From IMG/VR virus record IMGVR_UViG_3300047178_000065, positions 1 to 27,722 of that record: a stretch of DNA of 27,722 nt. The stretch is one strand, 5' to 3'. Each line of letters opens with the position of its first letter. Position 1 is the stretch's first letter. This document shows positions 1,098 to 22,974 of this stretch, piece after piece. The translations under genes and the position numbers were made by a program. The notes under the pieces were generated by a model, which searched no databases, was not told the origin of the DNA, and saw only the letters and a list, made by a program, of their open reading frames with translations. This DNA comes from a virus.

Positions 1098-1268
1098 ATG
1101 GCGAAATTTGTCGTGGTCGAAGTCTTCTCTTCTGAGGAGTTTCCTTCGTATGAAGAGGCTTTCTCGATAGCTGACGTCCGTCTCCAAGAAGGCGAAGACG
1201 TTGTCATATATGAAGTGACAAAGAAATACTTTCCAACGAAAGCGGTATTCAAAGAGGAGGAATTGTGA
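1098..1268 (+). CDS. Small acidic hypothetical protein, 56 aa
   Basis: ATG at 1098 is preceded by GAAAGGA at 1084-1090. The product begins MAKFVVVEVF and ends KEEEL; it is acidic and reads like a compact alpha/beta fold with alternating hydrophobic strands (FVVVEVF, VVIYEVT). Its TGA overlaps the ATG of the GGCT-like gene, so translation of the two is probably coupled. No family recognised. Confidence 0.6.
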   Translation: MAKFVVVEVFSSEEFPSYEEAFSIADVRLQEGEDVVIYEVTKKYFPTKAVFKEEEL

Positions 1269-1693
1269 TGGCAGCTCACAACGTCTTCGCCTACGGCACT
1301 CTCCGAAAACGAGAAGAGCGCCAGCATTGGATGAAATTCATCCATGACACTGGTCGTCAAGTCCAAGTCCAGGGATTTTTATTCGACATGGGATGGTTCC
1401 CGGCCCTACGTCTCTCGGATGACGGCTATTCCGTCCTCTGTGACGTCATACAAGTAGATGACGACGGTCTTGCTCTTCTGGATGACTACGAAGGCTTCAT
1501 CCCCGAATTCCCCGACCACTCCTTCTATGTACGACATCTCGTCAACATCGACGGACTCGATGGCTTCATCTATGAGTTCCACACGACACCTCCTCTCGAT
1601 CAACTCATCCACGGTTCTGATTGGCTGGAGTATACCTCGCTCCGCTCGGAGCAAAATCGACAGGAAAGGGAGCTTGCTCCTTTGTCAAGGTAA
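1268..1693 (+). CDS. Gamma-glutamylcyclotransferase-like (GGCT/AIG2) protein
   Basis: The 141-residue protein starts MAAHNVFAYGTLR; the YGTL signature (residues 9-12) is the substrate-binding loop of the GGCT/AIG2 fold, and Glu75 in LDDYEGF sits where the catalytic glutamate is expected. Family members cleave or rearrange gamma-glutamyl amides to release 5-oxoproline and an amine. ATG at 1268 is preferred to GTG at 1265 because it overlaps the upstream TGA and GAGGAGG lies a few bases before it. Length is near the family norm. It heads a cluster of glutamine amidotransferases and amidoligases, so a role in gamma-glutamyl compound turnover is plausible, though the substrate is unknown. Confidence 0.82.
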   Translation: MAAHNVFAYGTLRKREERQHWMKFIHDTGRQVQVQGFLFDMGWFPALRLSDDGYSVLCDVIQVDDDGLALLDDYEGFIPEFPDHSFYVRHLVNIDGLDGFIYEFHTTPPLDQLIHGSDWLEYTSLRSEQNRQERELAPLSR

Positions 1694-1718
1694 TTCTAAC
1701 CAGAAAGGCGATAAATCT

Positions 1719-2120
1719 ATGTTACGACTTTCCTGTCATGGCGGTATGTGCTGCGGCATCAAACACATCTTCGGTTTTCCATTCTATCCTAATCAGGTGA
1801 TGGAACCTGAGTTGGAAGAGCAGACTGAATTCGACGACGAAGACTTAGCAGGGGAAGAGGTTCGATCCTATCTCTCTTTCTTCACTCCTTCAGCCCCTGC
1901 TGAGACCGTAGAGGCTCGTCTGGACAGGTTCCTTGCCTACATCAGGGAAGAGCGTCCTGGAGGCATCGTAGAGGCTGTCCTGGTCCGTGATTATGAAGGA
2001 GAATGGGACCAGATCGTCGTCAACGAAAAGAGACTCCTCTCAAGAGGTTTTCGTGTCGTCAACGAGGTTCGGAATAGCAACTCCGACAACCTCTGTCGGG
2101 TCTATCATCTCAACATGTAA
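1719..2120 (+). CDS. Hypothetical protein with HGGMCCGIKHI motif (paralogue A)
   Basis: This 133-residue protein is started by ATG 1719 with GAAAGG upstream. Its N-terminus carries LRLSCHGGMCCGIKHIFGF, and its second half has EAVLVRDYEGEWDQIV and LLSRGFRVVNEVRNSNSDNL. Both blocks resemble the next gene (HGGEGIGCCAVDIIQGF and ILKDEGFEFLRTVGNSVY), so I infer a divergent paralogous pair. The middle is acidic (EEQTEFDDEDLAGEE). No catalytic function can be assigned. After the TAA the same frame stays open for 14 more codons before another TAA at 2163. Confidence 0.7.
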   Translation: MLRLSCHGGMCCGIKHIFGFPFYPNQVMEPELEEQTEFDDEDLAGEEVRSYLSFFTPSAPAETVEARLDRFLAYIREERPGGIVEAVLVRDYEGEWDQIVVNEKRLLSRGFRVVNEVRNSNSDNLCRVYHLNM

Positions 2121-2187
2121 TACAACTACATCCCTTACGACGAATACGGCCCTGACGACGACTAACAACAAACAAGGAGAAGAAGTA

Positions 2188-2874
2188 ATGGCATATTCTG
2201 CAAGCAAAATAGAGTTTCTTCGTTTCGGCTCACAGCATGGCGGTGAAGGCATCGGCTGTTGTGCCGTTGACATCATTCAGGGTTTCGTAAACGACCCTGA
2301 CGCACCAGCGACGGTCCAACTCTTCCACGGCGACCGTGGCGGCAAGAACGACGGAGCCCTGACCGTGATTGCCAACGGCAAGTCGGAGTTTGCCTATCTC
2401 GGCAAGACGAATAAGGAAGTCTTCGAGAACTACATCCGTATCGGTACTTTTGGTACGGAGGATATGCCCGACCATACCTTCCTAGCCGTCTTCTCTGATT
2501 ACCAAATGACAGATCGCAACGGAAAGGCTTGGTTGAAGATACTCAAGGATGAGGGATTTGAGTTCCTTCGTACAGTAGGTAACTCCGTCTACACCGGTCA
2601 AGAAGTCCCTACAGAGCCTACAAACAAAGGCAGGCCTCATAAGAACCATATCTTTGCTCTCTTCCGCAATATCTCTTCTAACGCCGTCCCTGATCCCTTT
2701 ACTCCCCCTAAGGCATGGTCAGACCTTCCTGAACCGACGATGACTCCTCATCAAATCTGGCATTCCCGCAAGACGAAGATTTACGGCGAGTCGGAGATCA
2801 AAGGTCACGACCCTGCCAAGACCAAGGCAGCTTCCAACCCCTTCGCAGCCAAGGCCGTAACTGAACCGGCATAA
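2188..2874 (+). CDS. Hypothetical protein, 228 aa (paralogue B)
   Basis: ATG at 2188 follows AAGGAG at 2174-2179. The N-terminus has HGGEGIGCCAVDIIQGF (residues 18-34), similar to the upstream protein, and the centre has LAVFSDYQMTDRNG followed by LKILKDEGFEFLRTVGNSVY. The last 60 residues are Pro/Lys/Ala-rich and probably unstructured. No known fold is recognisable. It sits between the GGCT-like gene and the class I amidotransferase, so it is likely part of the same functional block. Confidence 0.75.
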   Translation: MAYSASKIEFLRFGSQHGGEGIGCCAVDIIQGFVNDPDAPATVQLFHGDRGGKNDGALTVIANGKSEFAYLGKTNKEVFENYIRIGTFGTEDMPDHTFLAVFSDYQMTDRNGKAWLKILKDEGFEFLRTVGNSVYTGQEVPTEPTNKGRPHKNHIFALFRNISSNAVPDPFTPPKAWSDLPEPTMTPHQIWHSRKTKIYGESEIKGHDPAKTKAASNPFAAKAVTEPA

Positions 2875-2885
2875 GGAAAGAGTTC

Positions 2886-2899
2886 GGGACTGAAGTCCC
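2886..2899 (+). other. Small inverted repeat before gene 2918
   Basis: GGGAC-TGAA-GTCCC is a perfect 5-bp hairpin between two genes, ending just before the purine-rich ribosome binding region of the downstream gene. No T-tract follows, so it is more likely an RNA processing or stabilising hairpin than a terminator. Confidence 0.35.
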
Positions 2900-2917
2900 T
2901 TGAAGGGAAAGAAGGAT

Positions 2918-3232
2918 ATGAGAAATGCCTTCAACGAGTTCAAACTTTATCGTGCCATCGGGCTAAAGGAGTGGGGTTATCACGACGAGTCCTTCGCCTT
3001 GATGACGGAGGTCGTACTAGAAGAAGTGGATCACATGGATGTCAAAGCTATCCAAGCGACAAAAAAGGATAAGGAATATGTCGATGCAGAAAGATACTGG
3101 GACGACTACCATTACAAGCAATGGTCCGCCCGGCCTGCTCCTAGGCCAACACAAGGTCATCCTGCAAAAGGACTCGGCTCTGGAAATGCCGGAGCTGTGG
3201 TTGTCAGTCTATCTGACGGGCTCCCCTTTTGA
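2918..3232 (+). CDS. Hypothetical protein, 104 aa
   Basis: ATG at 2918 is preferred to the upstream TTG at 2900, since GAAGGG (2902-2907) lies at a suitable distance. The first 70 residues (MRNAFNEFKLYRAIGLKEWG onward) look helical and acidic; the C-terminus is Pro/Gly-rich and low in information. It overlaps the class I amidotransferase start by about 47 nt, an unusually long overlap here, so one of the two boundaries may be different. No family recognised. Confidence 0.55.
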   Translation: MRNAFNEFKLYRAIGLKEWGYHDESFALMTEVVLEEVDHMDVKAIQATKKDKEYVDAERYWDDYHYKQWSARPAPRPTQGHPAKGLGSGNAGAVVVSLSDGLPF

Positions 3233-3923
3233 GAAGAGGCAGTTCGCAGAGATGTTCTCTCGGGCTCGGTGCTACAACGCCAAGACTCCTGAAGAGGCTG
3301 ATCTGGTTGTCTTCGCAGGTGGTGCAGACGTCAACCCTGCTCTGTACGGCGAGCTTCCACATGAGACGACCGTACACAACGAAGAGCGTGACAAGGAAGA
3401 CATCGATCTGTACAACCTCTGTTACTCCCTCGGCATCCCTATGTTTGGTATCTGCCGTGGTGCCCAGTTCCTTGCAGTGATGAACGGCTTCAAGCTCTAT
3501 CAGGATGTCGATGGCCACAACCAGGCCCATGGCATGTTCGACCGCAAGGGCAAGAAGTATCTACAGTCTGTCTCGTCTGTCCATCATCAGATGGTCATTT
3601 CGGGACCTGGGATGGAAGTCATCGCCCATGGCCACAACAGCAAGACTCGTTGGTTCAACGACACGACGAAGGCAGTCGGCAACCATCAGGACGTCGAAGC
3701 TTTCTTCATTCGTGACACATGCTGCATTGGCGTACAGGGACATCCCGAATACCGTGGCTACGCAGAATACACGAAGTGGTGTCTCGACCTGATCTATGAG
3801 TACGTCGAGTTGAATGCCGATCTTGAAGCCACAGGCAAGTATCGTCGTCTCAAGGCAGAGTACATCATGGAACGGTTTATAAAAGAGCAGGAAAAGAAGG
3901 TGCTTACACAAGAGTGGAATTGA
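3186..3923 (+). CDS. Class I glutamine amidotransferase / gamma-glutamyl hydrolase (peptidase C26, PuuD-like)
   Basis: The protein of 245 residues (from ATG 3186, MPELWLSVY) has the PuuD/C26 hallmarks: FAGGADVNPALYGE (43-56), the nucleophile elbow FGICRGAQ with Cys90, and the catalytic His-Glu pair in GHPEYRG (His186, Glu188). These enzymes hydrolyse gamma-glutamyl bonds, for example gamma-glutamyl-GABA, or release ammonia from glutamine. All triad residues are present, so it is probably active. The frame is open further upstream to 3039, but ATG 3186 fits the family's start. Adjacent amidoligases suggest it trims or supplies a gamma-glutamyl product. The leftward promoter at 4076-4104 would make RNA antisense to this gene. 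Confidence 0.88.
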   Translation: MPELWLSVYLTGSPFEKRQFAEMFSRARCYNAKTPEEADLVVFAGGADVNPALYGELPHETTVHNEERDKEDIDLYNLCYSLGIPMFGICRGAQFLAVMNGFKLYQDVDGHNQAHGMFDRKGKKYLQSVSSVHHQMVISGPGMEVIAHGHNSKTRWFNDTTKAVGNHQDVEAFFIRDTCCIGVQGHPEYRGYAEYTKWCLDLIYEYVELNADLEATGKYRRLKAEYIMERFIKEQEKKVLTQEWN

Positions 3924-3962
3924 TTCGTACAAGGAGTAAGAGATTTGAGAAGGAGGGTTGAT

Positions 3963-4004
3963 AAGAGGTTGGGCAGGCCCATCTCTTGTTAACAATACTG
4001 TTAA
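3963..4004 (+). other. Two consecutive inverted repeats in the 3924-4155 intergenic region
   Basis: Hairpin one pairs AAGAG (3963-3967) with CTCTT (3983-3987) and TGGG (3970-3973) with CCCA (3978-3981). Hairpin two is TTAACA-ATAC-TGTTAA (3989-4004). Neither has a clean T-tract. They lie just after the class I amidotransferase and within the path of the leftward transcript from 4076-4104. They may terminate or stabilise RNA from either direction, or bind a dyad-recognising protein. The rest of the intergenic region is AT-rich with no ORF I trust. Confidence 0.4.
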
Positions 4005-4075
4005 GACAGTAGTTATTAATACAATATAATAAACAATAATCTTTAACTACTACCCCCTTCTCACCCTGTACGGAT

Positions 4076-4104
4076 ATTATACCACACTTTTCACTTTTTG
4101 TCAA
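4076..4104 (-). promoter_or_regulatory. Strong sigma70 promoter P2, pointing left (antisense)
   Basis: Read on the minus strand: TTGACA (4104-4099), 17 bp spacer ending TGG, TATAAT (4081-4076), then CCGTACAGGGTGAG. The sequence from GG before the -10 to the GGGG of the leader is the same as P1 over about 30 bp, in opposite orientation. Transcription would start near 4069 and run leftward, against every gene in that direction, giving an antisense RNA to the intergenic hairpins and the class I amidotransferase. Confidence 0.85.
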
Positions 4105-4155
4105 GAGTTATTTTCAACTATTTCACAACCTTTTGAATTTGAAAGGAATTCTATA

Positions 4156-5325
4156 ATGTGTGGGAACGTGGGACTTATGGGTGTGTTAGAACACCGCGAC
4201 GAGGCGACAATGAAGCGTCTCCTTCTTTATGATTACTTCCGGGGCATGGACTCGACTGGTTTTGCCGCCGTCCGTCATGCCACAAAAGATACCCATGTCG
4301 TCAAGATTGCCAGTCATCCTCTCGACCTGTTCGACAGCAAGAAGTTTGACACCGCCCTTTCGGGTACGGCAAGCTCTGTCTTCATCGGTCACAACAGGGC
4401 AGCTACGAAAGGCAAGGTCACCGCCAACAACGCCCATCCTTTCGTTGTAGATCATATCATCGGTGCTCACAACGGAACTCTTTCCATCACCTCTCATATG
4501 GGCTTGGAAGACGAACTCGGAGAAAAGTTTGATGTCGATTCCCTTGCTATCTTCACCCATATCGCTCGGTTTGGCGTACACAAGACAATTCCTCTCCTCC
4601 AAGGAGCCTGGGCACTCGTCTGGTACGACAAGAACGAAAACACCGTCAACTTCCTTCGTAACAAAGAAAGGTCTTTTTGGACGGCGGTCTCGAAAAACTA
4701 CCAGCAGGTGATGTGGGCGAGTGAATGGCCTATGATACAGGCTGCAATCGGTCTGTCGCCGTCGAAGTATGAAATGGCCCAGTCGACGGAGGGTTATACC
4801 TACTTTGCCACCGATATCGACGAGTTGTACACCTTCGATCTCGACAAGCTCCGCGACAAGACGGACATGGACTATCCTCTCGAATACGCCAAGCGTGGTC
4901 AACTCAAGGGAAAGGAGCCTGCCCCGGCTGTTACACATTACAGCAGCGGCACCGCCCCTTTTCACCGCCATGGCGCCAACACAGGACACTCGGGGAGTAC
5001 ACAGAACAAGAACTCATCGACAACCCTTGGCTCGACTGGTAACGGCACCGGACGAAACGGCGTCCAGTTCATCAATCTCGTCGCCGACAAGAGCGATCCC
5101 TTCGCGGGACACCTTCCGATTGATCGATTTCATGAGCTGGCTAGCTTTGGTTGTTCTTGGTGCAATAGCGACATTGATGTTGATACAGTTGGCGTCACTG
5201 TCGTAAACTACGACGATATCATACTCTGTTCGAACTGTTCAGTCGATTCGTCACAAAATCGTCTCATCGTGCCTGAATTGCCTACACTTCCTGAAGGTAT
5301 CCAGTCCCTCCTTAACCATCTCTAA
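4156..5325 (+). CDS. Class II glutamine amidotransferase with C-terminal zinc ribbon
   Basis: This 389-residue protein starts MCGNVG, so Cys2 becomes the N-terminal nucleophile of the Ntn-hydrolase glutaminase once Met is removed. Further hallmarks are FRGMDSTGFA (28-37), GHNRAATKG (78-86) and the GAHNGTL oxyanion/substrate loop (103-109). The domain ends near 250; a Ser/Thr/Gly/Asn-rich linker leads to a CxxC...CxxC knuckle (Cys333, 336, 358, 361). No synthetase domain is fused, so ammonia from glutamine must go to a separate partner, plausibly the amidoligases next door, or it hydrolyses a gamma-glutamyl amide. AAAGGA at 4142-4147 supports the start. Confidence 0.9.
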   Translation: MCGNVGLMGVLEHRDEATMKRLLLYDYFRGMDSTGFAAVRHATKDTHVVKIASHPLDLFDSKKFDTALSGTASSVFIGHNRAATKGKVTANNAHPFVVDHIIGAHNGTLSITSHMGLEDELGEKFDVDSLAIFTHIARFGVHKTIPLLQGAWALVWYDKNENTVNFLRNKERSFWTAVSKNYQQVMWASEWPMIQAAIGLSPSKYEMAQSTEGYTYFATDIDELYTFDLDKLRDKTDMDYPLEYAKRGQLKGKEPAPAVTHYSSGTAPFHRHGANTGHSGSTQNKNSSTTLGSTGNGTGRNGVQFINLVADKSDPFAGHLPIDRFHELASFGCSWCNSDIDVDTVGVTVVNYDDIILCSNCSVDSSQNRLIVPELPTLPEGIQSLLNHL

Positions 5326-5347
5326 CTCAGCAAGAAAGGTCTAAGTC

Positions 5348-6199
5348 GTGAAAGCTCCAATCAAACCCATGCCGGGATTCAAGTTTGGGTGTGACCCAGA
5401 ATTGTTTGTTCTCAACACAGAAGGTCGTGTCGTCTCTGCACACGATCTGTTGCCTGGAACGAAGGATGAGCCCTTCAAGGTTCCTTACGGAGCTATCCAA
5501 GTCGACGGCACTGCCGCCGAGTTCAACATCGATCCAGTCGAGAACTTCGAAGACTTCGACCGTAACATCGTCGAGGTGATGAAAAGTCTGCTCTCTTTCC
5601 TTCCGAAAGGGTACAAGCTCTCTATCGTTCCTTCTGTCAAGTATGACATCGAGGAATGGGAGCGTATCCCTCCTTCTGCCAAGGTTCTCGGCTGCACCCC
5701 AGACTTCAACGGCTGGACGAATATGCAGAACCCATCGCCGAAACCTACCGGCGAACTCGAACGTGTCCGTACGGCAAGCGGCCATCTCCATATCGGCTGG
5801 ACACAGGATATCGATCTTTCGAAGGATATCGATCATCTCAATCACTGCTCCGACCTTGTGAAGCAGCTCGACTGGTATCTGGGATACTGGTCTCTCTTGT
5901 CCGACAAAGACAACATCCGTCGTTCCCTGTACGGCCAGGCAGGGGCATGTCGTTACAAGAATTACGGTGTCGAATACCGTGTTCTGTCCAACTTCTGGTT
6001 GACGAGCAAATCTCTTCGTAGAGCTGTCTGGGATCGGATGAACCAAGCCATCTGGGATATGTCGGTTCTCTACTTGCCAGAGAAATATAGTAGTGATGCC
6101 AACAGCCTCCTCTGCAAGGCTATCAACTTTTCTCGCCGTAACCAGGATTTTGAGTACGGTCGGAATTATCCTTTGAAAACTATCACGAAGGAAGGCTAA
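5348..6199 (+). CDS. phiEco32-type COOH-NH2 ligase (type 2 amidoligase)
   Basis: The 283-residue protein resembles the phage phiEco32-like COOH-NH2 ligase type 2 family, which has the glutamine-synthetase-like fold and is predicted to form amide bonds with ATP. Visible blocks: FKFGCDPELFVL (11-22), GAIQVDGTAAEFNIDP (48-63) with metal-binding acidic residues, TASGHLHIGW (142-151), and a late GACRYKNYGVEYRVLSNFW. It begins with GTG at 5348, with GAAAGG 9 nt upstream. It sits between the class II glutaminase and a second amidoligase. The acceptor and donor are unknown. The antisense frame is also long but is a shadow. Confidence 0.87.
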   Translation: MKAPIKPMPGFKFGCDPELFVLNTEGRVVSAHDLLPGTKDEPFKVPYGAIQVDGTAAEFNIDPVENFEDFDRNIVEVMKSLLSFLPKGYKLSIVPSVKYDIEEWERIPPSAKVLGCTPDFNGWTNMQNPSPKPTGELERVRTASGHLHIGWTQDIDLSKDIDHLNHCSDLVKQLDWYLGYWSLLSDKDNIRRSLYGQAGACRYKNYGVEYRVLSNFWLTSKSLRRAVWDRMNQAIWDMSVLYLPEKYSSDANSLLCKAINFSRRNQDFEYGRNYPLKTITKEG

Positions 6200-6200
6200 G

Positions 6201-6956
6201 ATGGCGAAGTATCCCAATTTCTACGAGTCTCTTCCTGAGGCTAATAAAAGGATCAAAGGCACCGTCATTCTCTACGACGGCCATCCTTACCACGTCCTGG
6301 CTGTTGCCAATCACATGGGTGACGACATCTTCAGGGTTTACATGGAACCTCTCTGTGACGGAAAAGATAGTGAGATGCGTTTCTTTCCTTTCGATGGCAT
6401 CTCGAAAAACAGCGGAGACAATCCTTCCGTTGGACCTCTCTGTGACCAGTACCTTCAGACGAAACCTCATTCGAAGGTAATCAGGAAACAGATGAATTCC
6501 CCTCATTTCAACAAGTTCCGGCCATTTCCTCTCGGTTTTGTGAACATCGATGACCGTTGTGTCTATGTCGAAAGGGCTCCTACTCGTCGTACAGAGCAGG
6601 GTCTGAATAGTCAGAGTCTCTCACAGATTCCTGTCTGTCTCGGAGGGAATTCCTTTCGAGATCGTCAGGTTGGACTCTTGTCAAATGAGTTGGCAGACAC
6701 TATATTGGGCAACTATCCTAGCATCGACGAAACGTTCGAAGCCTTGAATAATCCCGATATTGCCAATCGTGGCGTGGCTTTCGACAGGAAACTGGCCCTT
6801 ATCCGAGGACCTATCGGAATGCTTTTCGTTGCATACAAGAGCGAGATCGTCGGCGTCTGTCCTCATGGTGACAAGACGATGTTGAAACTCGGAAACGACT
6901 TCAAGTATCTCACTGAAGTTATCGCAGCAACTGAATACTTTGGAAGGATTGTGTGA
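6201..6956 (+). CDS. Hypothetical protein of the amidoligase cluster, 251 aa
   Basis: ATG at 6201 follows the upstream stop by one base with AAGGAAGG before it. The N-terminal 75 residues (VILYDGHPYHVLAVANHMGDD and on) look like a small beta-barrel; the centre has ERAPTRRTEQGLNSQSLSQI, and the C-terminus a beta-rich region (GMLFVAYKSEIVGVCPHG). No catalytic motif is evident. Its position, tightly packed between two amidoligases with an ATGA overlap to the second, implies co-translation and a shared role, perhaps as a structural or substrate-binding partner. Confidence 0.75.
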   Translation: MAKYPNFYESLPEANKRIKGTVILYDGHPYHVLAVANHMGDDIFRVYMEPLCDGKDSEMRFFPFDGISKNSGDNPSVGPLCDQYLQTKPHSKVIRKQMNSPHFNKFRPFPLGFVNIDDRCVYVERAPTRRTEQGLNSQSLSQIPVCLGGNSFRDRQVGLLSNELADTILGNYPSIDETFEALNNPDIANRGVAFDRKLALIRGPIGMLFVAYKSEIVGVCPHGDKTMLKLGNDFKYLTEVIAATEYFGRIV

Positions 6957-8068
6957 TGGCTCATCCAGTTTTTATACCGGCACTGAAAGACAAAGTGTAC
7001 GGCGAGGAAATCAGAAACCTGATGAGTAAAGGGAAGGTCTTCGGTGACATCGGTCTGGAGATCGAATGCGAAGGCAACAAGTTCTACAAGTCAGGCGCCA
7101 AGCTCGAACCGTACTGGTCTTACCACGAAGATCATTCTCTCCGTGGCAACGACAACGCCGAGTATGTCCTCTCTGCTCCTATCCCTTTCAACGAAGTGCC
7201 GGATGCTCTCAAACATCTCTGGACTCTGTTCAAGGATTACGGAACTGAATTGGATGAATCGAACAGGACTTCTGTCCACGTCCATCTCAACGTCGGTCTC
7301 TGGAATGTCAACCGTCTTGCGTCGTTTACGGCGATGTGGTTTGCTCTCGAAGAAATCCTAGCTGAATGGGCTGGCGATCATCGTGTCGGCAATCTCTTCT
7401 GTCTTCGTGCCAAGGATGCTCCGAACATCGTACAAACATTGAAGAGGTTTATCCAGCGTGACGGCGATGTCGCTCTCCATGACGGTCTCCATTACGCCGG
7501 ACTGAACATTCAGGCTCTGGCAAAGTTTGGTTCTCTCGAAAACCGTTACCTTCGTGGTGCCACCGATCCTCAACTTATCCTTGATTGGGTGTCTATCAAT
7601 CGTCGTCTCTACGAATTCTCTGAGCATTTTCCTGATCCTCGGGAAGTCTGCAACTCGTTCTCTTACGGCGGTCCTCTGTTTTTCATGAGGAATATCCTTG
7701 GAGATACTTATGACATCGTCCGTAACGGCATCGATTGGAAAGACGACCAAATCTCAGACTCCCTGTACGAAGGCATCAGAATGGCACAGGACATTTGTTT
7801 CTGTCGTGACTGGTCTGTTTTCGTTCCTGTAGTAACTCAAGACGATCCTTTTGGTCGTCCTAAGAAGAAGAAAAGCCTTTCGGGGCTGGCTCTGTCGAAC
7901 TTCGAAGAAGCTGAATTTCAAGCTATCTTGTCTTCTACCGGACCTGTTTCGGCGCCTTCCCCACATCCTTATCCCCAGCCACCAATAGATAATTCTAACA
8001 ACTTTTGGTTTGTTTCATCAAATGAATTCTCCGAAATGGTTCCAGACTACGATCCAGACGAGGATTAA
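6956..8068 (+). CDS. Amidoligase_2-type ATP-dependent ligase
   Basis: 370 residues from ATG 6956 (overlapping the upstream TGA; AAGGA at 6944-6948), preferred to GTG 6953. Motifs fit the Amidoligase_2 group of the glutamine-synthetase-like fold: DIGLEIECEG (31-40, metal-binding glutamates), SYHEDHSLRGNDNAEYV (55-71), RTSVHVHLNVG (104-114) and KFGSLENRYLRGA (190-202). The last 80 residues are Pro/Ser/Asp-rich and likely disordered, ending PDYDPDED. It is the second ligase of this fold in the cluster, so the pathway may need two successive couplings or a heteromeric ligase. Substrate unknown. Confidence 0.85.
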   Translation: MAHPVFIPALKDKVYGEEIRNLMSKGKVFGDIGLEIECEGNKFYKSGAKLEPYWSYHEDHSLRGNDNAEYVLSAPIPFNEVPDALKHLWTLFKDYGTELDESNRTSVHVHLNVGLWNVNRLASFTAMWFALEEILAEWAGDHRVGNLFCLRAKDAPNIVQTLKRFIQRDGDVALHDGLHYAGLNIQALAKFGSLENRYLRGATDPQLILDWVSINRRLYEFSEHFPDPREVCNSFSYGGPLFFMRNILGDTYDIVRNGIDWKDDQISDSLYEGIRMAQDICFCRDWSVFVPVVTQDDPFGRPKKKKSLSGLALSNFEEAEFQAILSSTGPVSAPSPHPYPQPPIDNSNNFWFVSSNEFSEMVPDYDPDED

Positions 8069-8070
8069 TC

Positions 8071-8865
8071 ATGGTAATTAAAATTCTTCCTTACAAAACC
8101 GGAAGCAAGAGTGTCAAAGCTCTCTGCGAAGCCCTGGACGTCAAAGCCCTACGTCTTGTAAACTCTAAATGGAAGATCAAGAAGGATTCTGTTGTAATTA
8201 ACTGGGGTTCATCTTCGTATGGGCCTTTGGTAGACAAACCTGTTCCAGAAAATACTTCTGTAACTATTTTGAACTCTCCTCTTGATGTCGCCTGTTGTGT
8301 CGACAAACTCAAATTCTTTCAACTCCTGAAAGATTTCACAGTCAGCTCTGAAATCGAAGACGACATAGTCCCTGAGTTCTGGACAGACAAGGAATACATT
8401 CCGGCAGGAGCTTATCCAATCGTCTGCCGGACAGTCCTCAACGGCCACTCAGGGGAAGGTATCGTCATAGCTGACACTCCTGACGATCTCGTCGATGCTC
8501 CCCTCTACGTACGGTATATGAAGAAGAAAAAAGAATTTCGTATCCACGTCGGCAAGACTTCTGACGGCACATTCGTAGTCATCGCAGAACAACAGAAGGT
8601 AGCAAAGAATGGAACAGAACCAACAGACTGGCGCATCCGATCCCACTCCAACGGTTTCGTTTTCCAACGCCAAGGAATTGATGTACCACTACATGTACGG
8701 TCTGCCGCTATGCGAGCTTTGGAAGCGACGGGCCTCGACTTTGGTGCAGTCGATTGTATCCTTACAACAGGAGGGAAAGCCTTTGTGTTGGAAATCAACA
8801 CCGCTCCCGGACTAGAAGGTCAAACCGTGACCGACTACGCCAACTTTTTCAAGGAGTTTTTGTAA
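8071..8865 (+). CDS. ATP-grasp ligase
   Basis: 264 residues. The central and C-terminal thirds show the ATP-grasp plan: a nucleotide-binding strand and loop VCRTVLNGHSGEGIVI (118-133), YVRYMKKKKEFRIHV (146-160), then the metal site FGAVDCIL (224-231) and FVLEINTAPGL (238-248), with Glu241 and Asn243 as Mg ligands. ATP-grasp enzymes join a carboxylate, via acyl phosphate, to an amine or thiol. The N-terminus is shorter and less conserved. GAGGAT upstream and 2-nt spacing from the amidoligase indicate one operon. It provides a third potential amide-forming step. Confidence 0.87.
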   Translation: MVIKILPYKTGSKSVKALCEALDVKALRLVNSKWKIKKDSVVINWGSSSYGPLVDKPVPENTSVTILNSPLDVACCVDKLKFFQLLKDFTVSSEIEDDIVPEFWTDKEYIPAGAYPIVCRTVLNGHSGEGIVIADTPDDLVDAPLYVRYMKKKKEFRIHVGKTSDGTFVVIAEQQKVAKNGTEPTDWRIRSHSNGFVFQRQGIDVPLHVRSAAMRALEATGLDFGAVDCILTTGGKAFVLEINTAPGLEGQTVTDYANFFKEFL

Positions 8866-9032: not shown

Positions 9033-9044
9033 AAGGAATTATTT

Positions 9045-9263
9045 ATCCAGTGCTACATCTGCGGACACGTCTTGTCCGGTGAACAAGTCTCTTACAACAA
9101 CGAACACAAGGACTGGGACCCTTGTCCGACCTGTCTAATCGCAATCGCGGAGGTTTTCTCAGACCCTCTTGACGAGGATGAAGTCACCTATGCCCTTGAA
9201 AAAGAAGGTATCCTTGAAAAAGATGAGCAGCCTATCAATATTTACCTTGACAAGTCAGACTAA
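9045..9263 (+). CDS. Zinc-ribbon protein, 72 aa, possible ATC start
   Basis: The frame encodes CYICGH and, later, CPTC, a paired CxxC zinc ribbon, then an acidic helical tail ending YLDKSD. The first CxxC lies upstream of the only ordinary start (TTG 9072). GAAAGG at 9031-9036 is placed correctly for ATC at 9045, reading IQCYICGH where MQCYICGH would be expected. I therefore extend the gene to 9045, either with a rare ATC start or a substitution of ATG. If TTG 9072 is used, half the zinc site is lost. Promoter P3 begins inside its 3' end. Confidence 0.55.
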   Translation: MQCYICGHVLSGEQVSYNNEHKDWDPCPTCLIAIAEVFSDPLDEDEVTYALEKEGILEKDEQPINIYLDKSD

Positions 9264-9305: not shown

Positions 9306-10922
9306 ATGATTAAGACTACTCATCTACCATGTCCCCGCTGTCCCTCTCGTGATGCCTACAGTATTCAGAGCAACGGCTGGGGACGATGTTTTTCCTGTAA
9401 ATGTAACATTCCACCAGATAAGGCTGACGATATGAGTCTGGCAGCCCCAGAAGTGACAACTGATAAACCTTTTACTCCTATGACATCTGTCTTCCGTCCT
9501 TTTCCTGAAAGAGGTTTTGTTGCTGAGACGGTGAAGCGTTATGGCATCGACGTAGGAAGCGAAGGAGCTAAGTATCTTGCGAAGTATCCCATCTTCGATA
9601 TCGAGGGTAACCACATCGGTAACAAAATCCGTGGACCAAATAAACAGTTCTTGTACGAAGGGTCCGTCAAGGGAGCGGGTCTCTTCGGTCGTCAGGCATT
9701 CCCGCCGGGAGGTAAGTATATCACTGTCGTAGAGGGTCAGGACGACGCAGCAGCGGCTTATCAGATGATGGGCAGTAAGTGGCCTGTCGTATCCGTACAC
9801 AGCTCCTCTACGGCTGTACAAGACGTAAAACGAGACTTCGAATATCTCAATTCCTTCGACAACATCGTCTTCTGTTTCGACAACGACGAACCCGGTAAGA
9901 AGGCTCTGAAGGATGTCTGCAACGTCGGTTTTGAAATCGGCAAGATCAAGACTCTCTCGTTGCGTAAGTACAACGATCCCAACGATTACCTTCGGAACAA
10001 AGAGGGCGATGGGTTTGTACGAGAATGGTGGCAGGCTCCTAGCTATCGACCAGACGGTCTTAAAATGGGCCGTGACATGGCCGATGAGATTCTTAATCGT
10101 CCTAAACATTTCAGTGTACCCTATCCGTGGCAGGGACTGAACAAGATGACGTATGGGATGCGGCTGTCAGAGGCCGTACTTCTTATGGCAGACACCGGCG
10201 TAGGTAAGACATCCGTACTAAAGGAGATTGAGTATTGTCTGCTGATGAATCCTGACATCATCAAGGAAGGATACGGAGTTGGATTTCTACACCTGGAAGA
10301 ACCTAACCACGACACTGCTCTTGGACTCCTTAGCATTCACGACAGCAAGCCGTACCACCTACCTGACACTCCATTTACTCCAGAAGATATCATAAAGGCT
10401 CATGGGGAGGTCCTAGACCATAACCGTGCTATCTTCTACGATCATTTCGGTAGCAATGATATTGACGAAATCCTCAACAAGATTCGCCACATGGTTGCCC
10501 TCGGGTGTAAGTACATCGTCATCGATCACTTGTCCATAATCGTGTCAGATCAGTCTGGAGATGAAAGGAAGCAGCTCGACGAGATCAGTACGAAGCTGAA
10601 GACTATGACGATGGAGTTGAACATTGCTGTACTTTGCGTCATTCATACAAACAGGACTGGCCAGGCGCGTGGTTCGGCGGGCCCGGAGAAAGTTGCAAAC
10701 ATTCATATGTCTTTGTATCGGGACAAGAAAGCCAAGGAGGCGTGGCGACGGAACATTACAGTTGTTACTGTTGAAAAGAACAGGTTTTGTGGCCGTACGG
10801 GACCATGCCTGTGGCTTGAGTACAACCCGGAGACAAATCGCCTTACAGAACTGACACAGGAACTGATCGACATCTACGAAGAAGGAGGAACTGCCCATGA
10901 AAGTGACCAGCCCTGGGCGTAA
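9306..10922 (+). CDS. T7 gp4-like bifunctional primase-helicase
   Basis: 538 residues, close to T7 gp4 (566). Order: N-terminal zinc motif (CPRC at 9-12, CFSC at 28-31) for template recognition; TOPRIM primase with VVEGQDDAAA (141-150) and FCFDNDEPGK (189-198); linker; RecA-like DnaB-family helicase with Walker A MADTGVGKTS (294-303), Walker B YIVIDHLSII (403-412), and a conserved HTNRTGQARGSAG block. It unwinds the fork 5'-3' and makes primers. GAGGAG upstream supports ATG 9306. It is the first gene after promoter P3 and overlaps the next small gene by 26 nt. Confidence 0.95.
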   Translation: MIKTTHLPCPRCPSRDAYSIQSNGWGRCFSCKCNIPPDKADDMSLAAPEVTTDKPFTPMTSVFRPFPERGFVAETVKRYGIDVGSEGAKYLAKYPIFDIEGNHIGNKIRGPNKQFLYEGSVKGAGLFGRQAFPPGGKYITVVEGQDDAAAAYQMMGSKWPVVSVHSSSTAVQDVKRDFEYLNSFDNIVFCFDNDEPGKKALKDVCNVGFEIGKIKTLSLRKYNDPNDYLRNKEGDGFVREWWQAPSYRPDGLKMGRDMADEILNRPKHFSVPYPWQGLNKMTYGMRLSEAVLLMADTGVGKTSVLKEIEYCLLMNPDIIKEGYGVGFLHLEEPNHDTALGLLSIHDSKPYHLPDTPFTPEDIIKAHGEVLDHNRAIFYDHFGSNDIDEILNKIRHMVALGCKYIVIDHLSIIVSDQSGDERKQLDEISTKLKTMTMELNIAVLCVIHTNRTGQARGSAGPEKVANIHMSLYRDKKAKEAWRRNITVVTVEKNRFCGRTGPCLWLEYNPETNRLTELTQELIDIYEEGGTAHESDQPWA

Positions 10923-11160
10923 ATGGTATATCAATATCAACAAGAATTTGATACGGAGTAACATCCTTGCAGAAAATCCTGAACCTCCTATCACGATACG
11001 TCATGGCAAGTACGGAAAATCTAGGGCCTGTATGGGTGTTTGGATTCCTGACGGGAGTCGGATCATCTATACTCCTAATAGTACTATTTTGGCTTGTGGG
11101 GCGCGTCTTGTAATAGAGTGTCCTACAGAACCTAAAGAGGATTATCTTGATGGCTCTTAA
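10897..11160 (+). CDS. Small basic hypothetical protein, 87 aa
   Basis: ATG 10897 lies inside the end of the primase-helicase gene and has a near-perfect Shine-Dalgarno, AAGGAGG at 10880-10886. The product is basic in its first half (MKVTSPGRKWYININKNLIR) and beta-rich, with no known domain. Its end overlaps the DNA polymerase start by 11 nt. Its position between helicase and polymerase suggests an accessory replication role, but nothing in the sequence proves it. Confidence 0.65.
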   Translation: MKVTSPGRKWYININKNLIRSNILAENPEPPITIRHGKYGKSRACMGVWIPDGSRIIYTPNSTILACGARLVIECPTEPKEDYLDGS

Positions 11161-12530
11161 GTATCTGACAGCCGACCTGTCGAAGCTTTGGAGTGTCGAC
11201 ATCGAAGGCGATCTCATACCAAGCACGGTTATCTGGTGCCTCTGTGCAGTCAAGCTTGATACAAAGGAAGAGGTACGTCTTCGTACTTCGAAGGATATAA
11301 GGGAGTGGATCGATGCCCGTAAGAAAGAAGGTTGTCGGTTCGTTGGCCACAACATTATTGGATATGACGCCCCTACTCTTAATCGTCTTCTGGGCACCTC
11401 TCTCACTATTGCTGACTTGGTTGACACTCTTGTCATGTCGATGGTGTATAATCCTTCCCTTCCTGACGGCCATTCTCTGGGCGCTTGGGGTCTTCGTATT
11501 AAACATCCGAAGGGAGATCACTCTGACTTCTCGAAGTGGTCTCAAGAACAGGAAGACTATTGCCTGAACGACGCCATCCTCTGTATGAAGGTCTATATGG
11601 CTTTGCTGCATCGGTGTATCAAGGCGGGGCTGACCGATACAGGTCTTGAGATTGAACATCGGTCGTGGCAACTGATACAACAACAACAGAAGAATGGCTT
11701 CGCCTTTAACTATCCAGAGGCCATGGTGTTGTACTCCAAAGTTAGAGGAATAGAAAATGACATCGCTGGACGAGTCCACACAATATGGCCCGCTAAACTT
11801 CTTTTCATACGAAAATATGCAAAGGCATATAAAAAGGATGGAAGCTATACAAAAGACTATCTCCGACATATCGAGCAGTATCCTCAAGTCACAATCTCCA
11901 ACGACGGAGGATACAACGTCTTTGATTACGTGTCTTTCAATATTGGAAGCCCAGATCAAAGATTGGAAAAGCTGCTTGCTCTCGGTTGGGTCAACGAAAA
12001 AGACGAAGTTACTAAGACTGGGAGACCTCAACCAGTTGTCAAGGGAAAGCTGGCACCTTCGCTCCAAAGGTTTGTCGACAGTACAGACAACCCCGGAGTA
12101 AAGTTGATTGCGGAGTGGTTGGATTACAACGCCCGTGGCAACATGATTAACACTTGGATGGAAGCGTACAACCATGACACCGGATGTATTCATGGCTCTT
12201 TGTGGCTTGCTAATACTCTTCGTTATAAACATTCTGCTCCTAATACTGCCAATATCCCTGCAGTTCGTATCAAGAAAGTCGACGGCAAAGAGGTTGTCCG
12301 GTATGGTGAGGACGGCGTATTCACTTATGAAGCCCGTGATCTATGGGTCACTCGTGATCCTGTACGTCGCCGTCTTGTGGGTGTCGATGCTAAAGGTATC
12401 CAACTACGTGTTCTCTCTAATTATCTGAACAACAAGGAGTTCACTGATGCAGTCCTCGGAGGCGACCCTCACAGTTACAACCAAGAGGTTGGAGGTTTTT
12501 CAACAAGAGCTATCGCGAAAACTTTCATCT
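11150..12530 (+). CDS. DNA polymerase, family A (T7-like), exon 1
   Basis: Encodes residues 1-460 and the first base of codon 461. The 3'-5' exonuclease domain shows VDIEGD (Asp17, Glu19), FVGHNIIGYDAP (64-75, Asp73) and YCLNDA (Asp141). Polymerase motif A is VDAKGIQLRVLSNYL with Asp413, and motif B begins with Arg453 and Lys457 in TRAIAKTFI. Without splicing the frame runs into TTA ATT TAG and would end in the middle of motif B. Joined to exon 2 it yields 618 residues (T7: 704) with all catalytic groups. ATG 11150 is chosen over TTG 11147; AAGAGG lies upstream. Confidence 0.93.
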
Positions 12531-13116
12531 TAATTTAGGATGACTTGGGAGAAATCCCTCGATTAAAACCACGTGAATTGCTGGAAACTCTCTCTGAGAC
12601 AATCAGCAGCCAAGCTAAGGGAAAAGAATTGTTTTGCAAGAAATGTAATACTGAGTCTGAAGATTTTAGATCACATCGTAAAGTTTGTAGACCTTGCGAG
12701 CGTGTTAAATCTAGGGCGAACGCGTTTAAATATGCTCGCGGTATTACATACGAAGAACGAGATGCTCTTCTAGAAAAACAAGGCGGGAAATGTGCCGCCT
12801 GTGGAACGAGCAATTCTAGGTCAGTTAAAGGCTGGCACGTCGATCATCGTCATAGTGACGGCTTGATTAGATCGGTTCTTTGTGCGACTTGCAACATCGC
12901 TCTTGGTCAAGTGAGCGACTCTATCGAAAGATTAGAGCATTTGATTGAGTACCTTAGAAGGTTCAACGACTAGGCGAAAGCCGTACAGCCAAGAGGCTGG
13001 AAGTGCGTGGCCCCGGACACGGGTGAAGATATAGTCTGGTCTGCATGGCGACATGCAGCAGTTCCACAAGCTCCCGTGGAACGGGCTGAGATTAACGACC
13101 TCAGTTGAACATAACG
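12531..13116 (+). ncRNA. Group I self-splicing intron in the DNA polymerase gene
   Basis: 586 nt. The 5' exon end UCAUCU pairs with GGAUGA (12538-12543), placing a U-G wobble exactly at the splice site (P1). The intron ends in G (13116), as group I introns do. Core elements are visible: GUGAAUUGCUGGAAAC with AAUCAGCAGCCAAGC (P4-P6), CGACUA (12966-12972) pairing with UAGUC (13032-13036) as P7, and the typical GAAGAUAUAGUC. Splicing joins t12530 to at13117-13118, making TAT (Tyr461) and restoring KTFIYAFLLGAGD, matching T7 motif B. An HNH endonuclease ORF lies inside, between the P6 and P7 strands. Confidence 0.92.
12629..12973 (+). CDS. Intron-encoded HNH / endonuclease VII-type homing endonuclease
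   Basis: From TTG 12629 (AAGGG about 8 nt upstream) the product is 114 residues. It has an N-terminal CKKC...CRPC zinc pair (3-23), GITYEERDALLEKQGGKCAACG (38-59), the VDHRH active site (71-75), and CATCNIALG (85-93): the ββα-metal fold with structural zinc, as in endonuclease VII-like HNH enzymes. It likely cleaves intronless polymerase alleles to spread the intron. The frame is open further upstream to 12545, but that part is intron core RNA. Its stop codon lies in the P7 strand, so RNA structure and coding overlap. Confidence 0.85.
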   Translation: MFCKKCNTESEDFRSHRKVCRPCERVKSRANAFKYARGITYEERDALLEKQGGKCAACGTSNSRSVKGWHVDHRHSDGLIRSVLCATCNIALGQVSDSIERLEHLIEYLRRFND

Positions 13117-13592
13117 ATGCATTCCTTTTGGGAGCAGGAGATGCAAAAGTCGGACAAATCATTGGGGATTCAGCAAGAGCTGGCAAAGAAGTTAAAGCTC
13201 GCTTTGTCTCGGGCTTCCCTGGACTTGGACATCTACTTGATGACCTTGCACGACAGGTGGATCGAACTGGAAGGATTAAGCTTTGTGACGGGACTCCCGT
13301 TATCGTCGACCGACCACACACGCGCCTTGGCTACCTCCTGCAAGGAGACGAGTCAAGGATCATGAAGAAAGCCGCCATCATCCTCAACTCCCTCGTACGG
13401 AAAGCCGGACTAGATGTCTTGAAGGTTGGTGACATCCATGACGAGTTTCAATTCGATGTCTTAAAGGAACACGTAGATGCTTTTATTGATCTGTGTCGCA
13501 CTGCTTTCCGCCTTGCTGGGGAGTTTTTTAACTACAATCTACCAATCGAATGTTCGGCAAAAGTAGGACTTACCTGGGCGAGTACCCACTGA
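13117..13592 (+). CDS. DNA polymerase, family A (T7-like), exon 2
   Basis: Begins with the last two bases of the Tyr461 codon, then AFLLGAGDAKVGQIIGD, which matches the end of T7 motif B (KTFIYGFLYGAGD). It contains HTRLGYLLQGDESRIMKKA and motif C VGDIHDEFQFDV with catalytic Asp569, and ends VGLTWASTH like other T7-type polymerases. The region 13053-13116 is open in frame but belongs to the intron. Tyr461 corresponds to the O-helix tyrosine controlling sugar selection (Tyr526 in T7). With motifs A, B and C intact it should be an active replicase. Confidence 0.92.
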
Positions 13593-18558: not shown

Positions 18559-18599
18559 AGAACAACAGGTATACAGACAATCAATAAAGGATGATTTCA

Positions 18600-19936
18600 T
18601 TGACGATTAAATTTCCTGAACTACCTAATCCCTTTCCTTCTGACTATGAGAAGTTTATCGCAGTATCCCGATACGTGAAGTGGATCGAAGAGAAAGGCCG
18701 AAGAGAAACCTGGCCAGAAACTGTCAGCCGTCTGATTAACTACTACGTCAGTCGTGTCCCTCAGTTCGAAGAAGTAGCGGAAGAAGTTTACAAAGCTATC
18801 CATGACCTCTCTGTCGTACCAAGCATGAGGGCTTTGGCTACAGCCGGGCCTGCTATGGATCGTAACGACATCTGTGCCTACAACTGTTGCTACGCCCCTG
18901 TAGACAATCCTCGTGTGTTCGATGAAATCCTTTATATCCTTATGTGCGGCACTGGTGTCGGCTATTCAGTAGAGAAAATGTATGTCCACAAACTCCCAAC
19001 AGTCTCAGAAACCTTCGAGGAAACCTCTAGCGTCATACATGTTGCAGATTCAAAGGAAGGTTGGGCACGAGCCCTCAGAGAACTCATCGCCCTTTTGTAT
19101 GCAGGTCAGCTTCCCAAATGGGACGTCAGTCGAGTACGAGGTGCAGGCGAAAGACTTAGGACCTTTGGTGGCCGTGCTAGCGGACCCGAACCTCTGGTTG
19201 ACCTTTTTGGATTCACTGTCCGCCTCTTTCGTGGTGCAGCCGGACGGCAACTCAGTTCACTAGAATGCCATGACTTGATGTGCAAGATCGCCGATGTAGT
19301 AGTCGTAGGTGGTGTACGTCGATCAGCTCTTATCAGTCTTAGTGATGCCGATGACGAACGTCTTCGTACGGCAAAGACAGGAGCTTGGTGGGTCGATGCA
19401 GGGCATCGTGCCCTTGCTAACAACAGCGCAGTCTATACAACTAAGAAACCTGACGTCGGTTTCTTTATGAAGGAATGGAAAGCTCTCTATGATAGCAAGT
19501 CAGGCGAGAGAGGGTTCTTTTCCAGGTACGCAGCTAAGAGAATAGCTGGACGCAATGGTCGTCGAAACATCGACCATGAGTTCGGTTGCAACCCCTGTTC
19601 CGAGATATTGCTTCGCCCATACCAGATGTGCAACCTGTCCGAACTGGTTGTACGACCTGACGATACATGGAAGACTCTAGAGAATAAAGTAAGACTTGCT
19701 ACAATCCTTGGCACTGTCCAGAGTACCTTTACAAACTTCAAGTATATCCGTAAAATTTGGGCAGATAACTGTAACGAAGAAAGGCTCCTCGGTGTATCCC
19801 TTACTGGTGTTCTTGATAACCCTAGTCTTATCCTTGATCCTAGTCTTCTTGAACACTTGCGTAACGTTGCAGTCGAAACCAATAAAGATTGGGCTGCCAA
19901 GCTGGGTATTCCCCAGAGTACTGCTGTGTCTTGCGT
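18600..19936 (+). CDS. Class II (B12-dependent) ribonucleoside-triphosphate reductase, exon 1
   Basis: Encodes residues 1-445 and two bases of codon 446. Motifs fit monomeric class II reductases (RTPR): AYNCCYAPVDNP (redox Cys near 96/97), CGTGVGYSVE (116-125), GCNPCSEILL (329-338) with the thiyl radical Cys333, Asn331 and Glu335, and MCNLSEL (Cys344, redox partner). The enzyme makes dNTPs with adenosylcobalamin, without oxygen. TTG 18600 is preferred because AAAGGA (18586-18591) precedes it at 8 nt; ATG 18591 overlaps that ribosome binding site and is the alternative. The unspliced frame ends at 19943, before the phosphate-binding motif. Confidence 0.92.
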
Positions 19937-20668
19937 GGACTGAAAGTTTAGCGCAATTAAAACTAGGTGAATTGCTGGGAAACCTAAGGGGTAAAACCTA
20001 TGGTAATCAGCAGCTAAGCCCGAAAGGGAAAGTTCAGAGACTATTACGTACACCCAAGTGGGTGGAAGCGCCTAGCTCCCTTGTAAAGGGATGATGATAT
20101 AGTCCGATCTCTTTAGAAATATGGAGCAGTTTGTGTACTCTCTTTATCGAATAATAAATAATCAATCCAAGTCTTCTTACATAGGTATGACGAATAAGTC
20201 CATTAGCCGAAGGTTTTACCAGCACCTATATGCTGCAAAAACCGGTAAGAAAACTAAACTGTATGACGCTATTAGATCATACGGGGCGGATTGTTTTTCT
20301 ATTATTCTTCTTAAAGAATTTGATACACGGCAAGAATGTTGTAATGCTGAAATTGACTTGATAGCAAAAGAAGATTTCCTTTACAATCTTGCTGCCGGAG
20401 GCGACGGAGGATTTGTAATCCAAGACGTCGAAAGTTGGAAAGAGAAACTTAGGGAAAAGAGAAAAGGAAGAACTCCCGCTCTCGGTATGAAACATACAGA
20501 CGATAATAAAAAGTTCTTTAGTGAGTGCAATAAAAGAAAAACTCTTCTGTATGACTACGACCTTCCTTCTTCTTTTAAAGAAGCAAACCAACTTTATGGT
20601 ATTAGTAAAACACACTACTACCGTCTGGTAAAACGGAGAAAGATTAACGACCTTTCTTGAACACTATG
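19937..20668 (+). ncRNA. Group I self-splicing intron in the ribonucleotide reductase gene
   Basis: 732 nt. The 5' exon end UUGCGU pairs with GCGCAA (19951-19956), with the U-G pair at the splice site (P1); GUUUA (19946-19950) pairs with the exon 2 start UAAAC (P10); the last base is G. The core shows GGUGAAUUGCUGGGAAAC and AAUCAGCAGCUAAGC (P4-P6), GACUA (20039-20043) with UAGUC (20100-20104) as P7, and GAUGAUAUAGUCC. Splicing makes GTT (Val446) and restores SCVKPSGTVSQLVDS of class II reductases. A GIY-YIG ORF fills the 3' part. Its core is clearly similar to the polymerase intron. Confidence 0.93.
20121..20660 (+). CDS. Intron-encoded GIY-YIG homing endonuclease
   Basis: 179 residues. The catalytic domain shows VYSLYRI (5-11), SYIGMT (19-24), RRFYQH (30-35) and Glu77 in NAEIDLI, the GIY-YIG motif set. 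The C-terminus, SFKEANQLYGISKTHYYRLV (around 151-170), is a helix-turn-helix DNA-binding module of the NUMOD type. It probably cuts intronless reductase alleles. It lies downstream of the whole catalytic core, and its stop is 8 nt from the 3' splice site. There is no strong Shine-Dalgarno, as is common for intron ORFs. It is AT-richer than its neighbours, consistent with separate origin. Confidence 0.9.
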   Translation: MEQFVYSLYRIINNQSKSSYIGMTNKSISRRFYQHLYAAKTGKKTKLYDAIRSYGADCFSIILLKEFDTRQECCNAEIDLIAKEDFLYNLAAGGDGGFVIQDVESWKEKLREKRKGRTPALGMKHTDDNKKFFSECNKRKTLLYDYDLPSSFKEANQLYGISKTHYYRLVKRRKINDLS

Positions 20669-22752: not shown

Positions 22753-22974
22753 TTAGTGTGCAAGCTTGAAGTATTCAATCACTGTATAGACACCACCAAT
22801 GATTGAAGTACCAAGTATTGCTGTAATAAGAGAGAGAGCCCCTAGACCTTTATGCTTGAACGCAAGGAGGGCGTCTAGCTTTTCCTTGATGTCTTCGTTC
22901 TGGGCGGAAAGATGTTCCACTTTAGTTTCTAGTATAGCTAGTCTCTCTGGCAAAGTTAGATAGGTCTCGCTCAT
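22753..22974 (-). CDS. Small membrane protein with coiled coil (XhlA-like layout)
   Basis: 73 residues. The N-terminal 45 form a heptad-rich helix (RLAILETKVEHLSAQNEDIK), and residues 45-67 a single transmembrane segment (GALSLITAILGTSIIGGVY). This is the layout of haemolysin XhlA-type or holin-accessory proteins. Its ATG overlaps the stop of the 1431-residue gene (TAATG on the minus strand), so it is translated with the virion genes rather than the lysis cassette. Confidence 0.7.
   Translation of the reverse strand: MSETYLTLPERLAILETKVEHLSAQNEDIKEKLDALLAFKHKGLGALSLITAILGTSIIGGVYTVIEYFKLAH

Follow-up and report, generated by a model that had tools for sequence, protein, structure and literature searches.

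An intact podoviral amidoligase cassette in an uncultured tailed phage and its possible link to peptidoglycan precursors

Introduction

What does a phage do with six amide-bond enzymes encoded side by side? This question is raised by positions 1268-8865 of a 27,722-base fragment of a virus record (IMG/VR record IMGVR_UViG_3300047178_000065; the whole fragment analyzed is called the window below). A first-pass annotation had proposed that these genes form a working pathway that builds and trims a gamma-glutamyl or amide conjugate, possibly as a cell-envelope or virion modification or an anti-defense metabolite. The source of the window is an uncultured tailed phage in which the amide-ligase set is intact. 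We read the region as a podoviral amidoligase cassette that runs an amide/gamma-glutamyl pathway as proposed, with peptidoglycan precursors as its likeliest target, a reading that as a whole we hold with slightly less than even confidence.

The cassette is not new, since the same gene set has been published for podoviruses; both the cluster and the idea of an envelope modification are already in print, and the cassette in the window is a further member. In Duhaime 2017 (PMC5498523), a seven-gene “peptidoglycan modification cassette” is described and credited to Iyer and Hardies 2013. The phages that carry it are RIO-1-like and other podoviruses, including phiRIO-1, PSA-HP1, PA11, tf, LUZ24, PaP3, CW02, phiEco32, and 7-11, and UFV-P2 lists the same genes. 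In two other papers, the superinfection-exclusion and endolysin-target ideas are repeated with a citation of Hardies 2013 (PMC11945000), and Iyer 2009 is named as the source of the wall hypothesis for phiEco32 (PMC10580990). What is added here is a quantified five-gene core, the recognition of the uncharacterized protein orf8 as a core member, a glutaminase with a ribbon tail and no SIS domains, which exposes a wrong GlmS name, and the kinship of two further proteins, orf2 and orf3.

Results

The region encodes ten proteins, all on the plus strand: six named enzymes together with orf2, orf3, orf4, and orf8. Pfam and PHROG profile matches and intact open reading frames (ORFs) bore out the identity, strand, and coordinates that the first-pass annotation had assigned to the six enzymes, and profile and structure searches placed the proteins in the named families, with conserved catalytic residues. 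The residues that it had singled out were near-invariant in homologs, namely YGTL and Glu75 of the GGCT protein; Cys90, His186, and Glu188 of the C26 peptidase; and Cys2 of the glutaminase. It had also been right that unassigned proteins are packed among the enzymes, but it counted three of them, whereas there are four, and it overlooked orf8 as a core member.

We surveyed 58 IMG/VR and phage loci with sufficient flanking sequence, seeded with the ligase, and 38 contigs seeded with the ATP-grasp protein, some contigs being common to both surveys. Because the best-ranked loci are those closest to the window, the surveys lean to its branch; LUZ24- and phiEco32-type relatives were included. The class II glutaminase (4156-5325), the COOH-NH2 ligase (5348-6199), orf8 (6201-6956), Amidoligase_2 (6953-8068, with a start at 6953 or 6956), and the RimK-like ATP-grasp ligase (8071-8865) occurred together on one strand in all 58 ligase-seeded contigs, and the other four genes accompanied the ATP-grasp gene in 37 of the 38 ATP-grasp-seeded contigs. 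These five genes had a median span of 4.75 kb, and the order C26, glutaminase, COOH-NH2 ligase, orf8, Amidoligase_2, ATP-grasp was found in 47/58 contigs. C26 was frequent (53/58 and 34/38 cassettes), and GGCT was facultative (34/58 and 20/38). Judging from gene content, the five-gene core is effectively obligate.

The ratio of nonsynonymous to synonymous substitution rates (dN/dS), calculated against the close relatives L003 and L004, was 0.07-0.28 for all seven cassette genes, and catalytic residues were near-invariant in alignments of 47-90 homologs per family. The cassette genes are thus intact and maintained by selection, and this dN/dS range and the order shared by 47/58 contigs place the clustering far beyond chance. 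Some published annotation handles the genes as separate auxiliary metabolic genes, as would suit passive hitch-hikers or decaying genes without a joint function; set against a core present in 58/58 and 37/38 contigs, low dN/dS, and near-invariant catalytic residues, this explanation is barely credible, and the cassette survey refutes it in practice. The proposal of a working pathway stood up well, as its enzymes are intact and subject to purifying selection, and they are conserved together and in synteny. Since the family assignments hold, catalytic residues remain conserved, and synteny across phages is strong, none of the outcomes that would have spoken against that proposal was encountered.

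Searches of INPHARED by tblastn reached 316 records for the COOH-NH2 ligase, 312 for the ATP-grasp ligase, and 315 for the glutaminase, with a near-equal breakdown by host genus; Amidoligase_2, which diverges faster, reached 75. About 310 of 50,697 phage records contain the cassette, among them records of phages that infect Pseudomonas, Escherichia, Klebsiella, or Vibrio, and the largest host groups among those listed are Gram-negative. A near-identity DNA search among phages gave no match to the window. The cassette is common to PA11, O4, CW02, CVT22, LUZ24, ECBP2, and Slicky01. PA11, O4, and CVT22 share the order C26, class II glutaminase, COOH-NH2 ligase, orf8-like protein, amidoligase, ATP-grasp, and primase; CW02 also has GGCT, ahead of the primase, and in LUZ24 and ECBP2 the glutaminase is placed after the amidoligase. 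Duhaime 2017 names the majority of these phages (PMC5498523).

Several loci depart from this layout. A 69-kb contig (L080) has the COOH-NH2 ligase and the glutaminase duplicated inside one cassette, and two contigs of metagenome-assembled genomes (L096, Geobacteraceae; L097, Rickettsiales) have partial sets, in which the COOH-NH2 ligase is joined by C26 and GGCT or by C26, glutaminase, and Amidoligase_2. Outside the cassette, one ATP-grasp homolog was found with GGCT alone (L167) and another, in the stretch fetched, with none of the other members (L137); these two loci might reveal an ancestral or minimal pairing.

We then considered what each family would contribute. The COOH-NH2 ligase of the phiEco32 type (Pfam PF14395, E = 2.1e-7, above the Pfam cut-off; PHROG 3815, 2.7e-75) retained Asp16-Pro17-Glu18 in 89/90 homologs and His146, His148, and Glu209 in 90/90, so that its putative metal/ATP motifs DPE, HxH, and GxEYR were present in 89-90 of the 90. 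Its AlphaFold (AF2) model, generated from alignments built from the window and its related loci, had a mean predicted local distance difference test score (pLDDT) of 95.8 and matched plant glutamate-cysteine ligase (GCS; 2gwc), YbdK (1r8g), and glutamine synthetase (GS; 4lnn) in the PDB with a probability of 1.00 (best E, 8e-5; template modeling [TM] score, 0.3-0.5 on the query). Because it matches GCS, YbdK, and GS, the predicted structure confirms a GS/GCS fold at the level of a model. Amidoligase_2, the second GS-fold ligase (PF12224, 7.6e-6, above the cut-off; PHROG 7469, 2.1e-57), carried the ExExE residues Glu36, Glu38, and Glu40 in 83-84 of 85 homologs, and the HxH residues His109 and His111 together with Glu196 and Arg198 in 85/85. 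A sequence search of the PDB with the profiles of both GS-fold ligases found no solved relative.

The ATP-grasp ligase matched PHROG 2599 (1.9e-65), TIGR00768 (4.5e-7), and, weakly, Pfam RimK (2.5e-4), and Lys79, Lys176, Asp228, Glu241, and Asn243 were present in 85/85 homologs. Its profile was nearest to RimK structures (5zct, 5.9e-10; 4iwx), followed by cyanophycin synthase and D-Ala-D-Ala ligase. As RimK proper, the ribosomal protein S6 glutamate ligase, it scored 26.3 bits against an equivalog cut-off of 331, which leaves the database name “ribosomal protein S6 glutaminyl transferase” unsupported. Long versions in two loci (L012 and L064) bear an unassigned C-terminal part. In the 89-locus set, no ORF matched two cassette families, so there was no fusion that would hint at a substrate.

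The class II glutaminase (389 amino acids; Ntn type with Cys2, GATase_6; PF13522, 1.5e-14; PHROG 4736, 5.8e-64) retained Cys2 in 83/86 homologs and Arg81, Asn106-Gly107, and Asp128 in 85/86 each. Its glutaminase domain is followed by a linker and a C-terminal CxxC-x21-CxxC ribbon (Cys333, Cys336, Cys358, and Cys361), and a ribbon of the CxxC...CxxC kind was present in 74/86 homologs. A Pfam search found no SIS domains, and as GlmS the protein scored 36.6 bits against the glmS cut-off of 418. The name “glutamine-fructose-6-phosphate aminotransferase” that many phage records carry is thus a misnomer, because the protein ends in a ribbon tail instead of SIS isomerase domains.

The two remaining enzymes lie upstream. 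The C26 peptidase with a class I glutaminase fold (3186-3923, start approximate; PF07722, 1.5e-20; PHROG 7218, 2.2e-35) had the triad Cys90-His186-Glu188 in 75/75 homologs and, as nearest solved relatives by profile, 3fij (Lin1909) and 7d4r; it is a probable gamma-glutamyl hydrolase. Two specific assignments failed, those to PuuD (30.4 bits against an equivalog cut-off of 266) and to gamma-glutamyl-CDP-amidate hydrolase (37.2 against 250). The GGCT/AIG2-like gamma-glutamyl cyclotransferase (1268-1693, with an alternative GTG start at 1265; 141 amino acids; PF06094, 3.5e-14; PHROG 2520, 1.7e-11) had the YG.L loop in 46/47 and Glu75 in 47/47 homologs.

Because C26 and GGCT are by family gamma-glutamyl hydrolases and the GS-fold ligases have a likeness to YbdK and to glutamate-cysteine ligases, the product could instead be a soluble gamma-glutamyl or amide metabolite, made for nitrogen or glutathione metabolism or for blocking a host defense signal. 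A paper on phage ZRK32 interprets similar genes as nitrogen-metabolism genes, although its claim is based on addition of the whole phage and not on tests of the genes. About 40% of cassettes lack GGCT, which rules out glutathione turnover as their core purpose, and we found no defense-linked substrate. We regard a soluble metabolite as a minority possibility, at roughly one chance in five.

The remaining core member, orf8 (251 amino acids), lies mostly between the two GS-fold ligases and was present in 87/89 loci, with a dN/dS of 0.07-0.16. It carries the motif RxPxRxxxQG at residues 125-134, and its conserved residues are Gly112, Arg125, Pro127, Arg129, Gln133, Gly134, Gly218, and Glu239, with Lys213 frequent. 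No conserved Asp, His, or Cys was found in the alignment, and for this reason catalysis is a less likely role for orf8 than that of a scaffold, carrier, or substrate. Its AlphaFold (AF2) model (pLDDT, 88.2; predicted TM score [pTM], 0.84) gave no match to the PDB at E<=0.001, with a weak resemblance to eIF5A and HEX-1. Against viral models, the significant matches were short uncharacterized phage proteins that are homologs from other cassettes, for example CW02 gp8 (H9D1D2; 7e-13), and the modeled fold is phage-specific.

These properties of orf8 bear on another explanation, in which the ligases build an amide or peptide tag on orf8 or on a host protein, in the manner of RimK with S6 or LysX with LysW. 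orf8 matches the enzymes in how obligate it is and, while lacking conserved Asp, His, and Cys, it conserves Arg125, Arg129, Gln133, and Glu239 and frequently Lys213; the ATP-grasp ligase is nearest to RimK, the glutaminase has a zinc-ribbon-like tail, and the weak resemblance of orf8 is to the EF-P/eIF5A (SH3-type) class of proteins, which are themselves tagged. This resemblance, however, is not significant (E 0.04-0.2; TM <0.35), orf8 lacks the conserved C-terminal Glu of LysW, and the ATP-grasp ligase falls well below the RimK equivalog cut-off. Tagging or carrier chemistry in general therefore seems improbable, on a par with the soluble metabolite. A narrower form of it, in which orf8 would be a dedicated phage acceptor or carrier with its own fold, on which the three ligases build an amide or peptide conjugate with the ribbon-tailed glutaminase as supplier, seems less probable still. 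If true, the cassette would serve viral protein tagging or biosynthesis on a carrier and would be no cell-wall modifier.

The setting of the cassette helps to weigh two further proposals. A DNA primase/helicase (9306-10922, plus strand; PHROG 239, 1.6e-135) adjoins the 3′ side of the cassette in most loci as a constant neighbor outside the pathway; in the window, a DNA polymerase comes next, and the cassette sits within the replication gene block. Since the genes lie in this block and not in a virion module, the virion modification that the first-pass annotation had allowed for became less likely. Other phages carry amino-acid-decorated bases, and adjacency to primase and polymerase would suit hypermodification of DNA bases with amino-acid or amide side chains. 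In 40 cassette-bearing records, however, neither the thymidylate synthase family, which includes base hydroxymethylases, nor QueC was found (0/40 each; the controls worked), which makes DNA modification less likely, and we consider it very improbable.

We therefore return to a pathway aimed at peptidoglycan precursors. From their families, the members are three predicted ATP-dependent carboxylate-amine ligases, a class II glutaminase, C26, GGCT, and the non-enzyme-like orf8. The glutaminase would free ammonia from glutamine and pass it to a GS-fold ligase, which in an ATP-dependent reaction would couple a carboxylate to ammonia or to an amine. Further amino-acid or gamma-glutamyl units would be attached to a common acceptor by the other GS-fold ligase and the ATP-grasp ligase, and orf8 would hold the acceptor or the enzymes together. 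PuuD and BtrG trim gamma-glutamyl groups in gamma-glutamyl-protected pathways; by analogy, C26 and, where present, GGCT would trim or recycle such groups. No membrane-spanning segment was predicted by hydropathy in the cassette proteins (maximum 19-residue mean, 1.30), and since all of them look soluble by this measure, the acceptor is probably cytoplasmic, which would fit cytoplasmic precursors. The stem peptide of these precursors is the most likely target, a choice that we make tentatively and with somewhat less assurance than the reading as a whole. The altered new wall would block later phages or tune lysis, as proposed by Iyer and Hardies.

Several observations weigh against this assignment. 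The open-licence literature searched yielded no experiment on the product or target, and a Pfam search found no recognizable muropeptide-binding or Mur-ligase domain in the cassette. The endolysins of 40 cassette phages were mixed (GH24 lysozyme, 21/40; M15 peptidase, 4/40; glucosaminidase, 1/40; amidase, 1/40), and thus do not clearly point to stem-peptide chemistry as what determines the type of lysis enzyme. In addition, the published model, as far as it could be read, has no place for orf8. The window has its own endolysin at 21972-22409, which matches PHROG endolysin families; the nearest long relative, the record of L004, has an enzyme of the glucosaminidase type, whereas most cassette phages have a GH24 lysozyme.

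The three proteins between GGCT and the core are less widely shared. orf2 (1719-2120, start approximate; 133 amino acids), which had no Pfam or PHROG match, is a diverged relative of orf3 (2188-2874, start approximate; 228 amino acids; dN/dS 0.13-0.19), and the two families fused in iterated hidden Markov model searches and were present at about 37-38 of 89 loci; orf2 itself is tied to the window's branch only. Members of the family share the motifs CC..I..F and GF....NS, and in close relatives they are mostly in tandem upstream of C26; in three loci (L090, L106, and L117) they lie between the ATP-grasp and primase genes. orf4 (2918-3232, start approximate; 104 amino acids) was found only in the window and its closest relatives (L002-L004) and is weakly constrained (dN/dS 0.30 and 1.1), and it is probably outside the pathway. 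All three genes are on the plus strand.

Elsewhere in the window, a small CxxC...CxxC protein directly upstream of the primase (9033-9263) is conserved in 47/89 loci and has no family assignment. A group I intron at 12521-13058 (Rfam RF00028, 7.8e-12), with an HNH/endonuclease VII-like ORF at 12545-12973, divides the DNA polymerase gene (11147-12538 and 13053-13592), and a second one at 19918-20685 (RF00028, 5.3e-20), with a GIY-YIG homing endonuclease at 20121-20660, divides the ribonucleotide reductase gene (18591-19943 and 20685-21263). About 30 copies of a GGTCAN hexamer form an array of two blocks near the left end (143-386). The minus strand encodes a 1431-amino-acid protein at 22974-27269, which had no PHROG match at 1e-5 and is possibly an internal virion protein.

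Discussion

Lytic podoviruses widely share the cassette as a metabolic module. The identity of its product would reveal either a new means by which viruses remodel the wall of their host or a new tagging chemistry of viruses, and the five-gene core, orf8, and the glutaminase ribbon define the minimal set for a reconstitution.

Known systems resemble the cassette in part. In the gamma-glutamyl-polyamine pathways of PuuA/PuuD and SpuI/SpuA, a GS-fold ligase is paired with a C26 hydrolase. The phage set has the same combination, and its C26 protein is near 7d4r, but this protein is below the PuuD cut-off, and the phage GS-fold ligases belong to other families. In butirosin synthesis, the ATP-grasp ligase BtrJ adds a gamma-Glu group that BtrG, an AIG2/GGCT-type protein, removes. 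An ATP-grasp ligase and a GGCT-type protein likewise occur in the phage set, which however lacks both acyl carrier protein and aminoglycoside genes and in which GGCT is optional. With GlmS, the phage glutaminase has the N-terminal Cys glutaminase domain in common, but it lacks SIS domains and ends in a ribbon.

In MurT/GatD, a glutaminase feeds an ATP-dependent ligase, which amidates a carboxylate in peptidoglycan (PMC3267633, PMC5871853). The phage set also combines a glutaminase with ATP-dependent ligases, but MurT is of the Mur-ligase type, whereas the phage ligases are of the GS-fold and ATP-grasp types and one phage glutaminase is of class II. A Pfam search found no Mur-ligase domain among the ten proteins, which places them outside the MurT/GatD system.

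The closest likeness is to the published podoviral cassette, with which the window shares the COOH-NH2 ligase, a second amidoligase, an ATP-grasp ligase, a glutamine amidotransferase, and GGCT, all linked and beside replication genes. The window differs from LUZ24 and CW02 in that its GGCT gene is upstream of C26, whereas theirs is next to the primase, and from the known cassettes in having the two extra related proteins orf2 and orf3 and a longer orf8 (251 vs ~185 amino acids).

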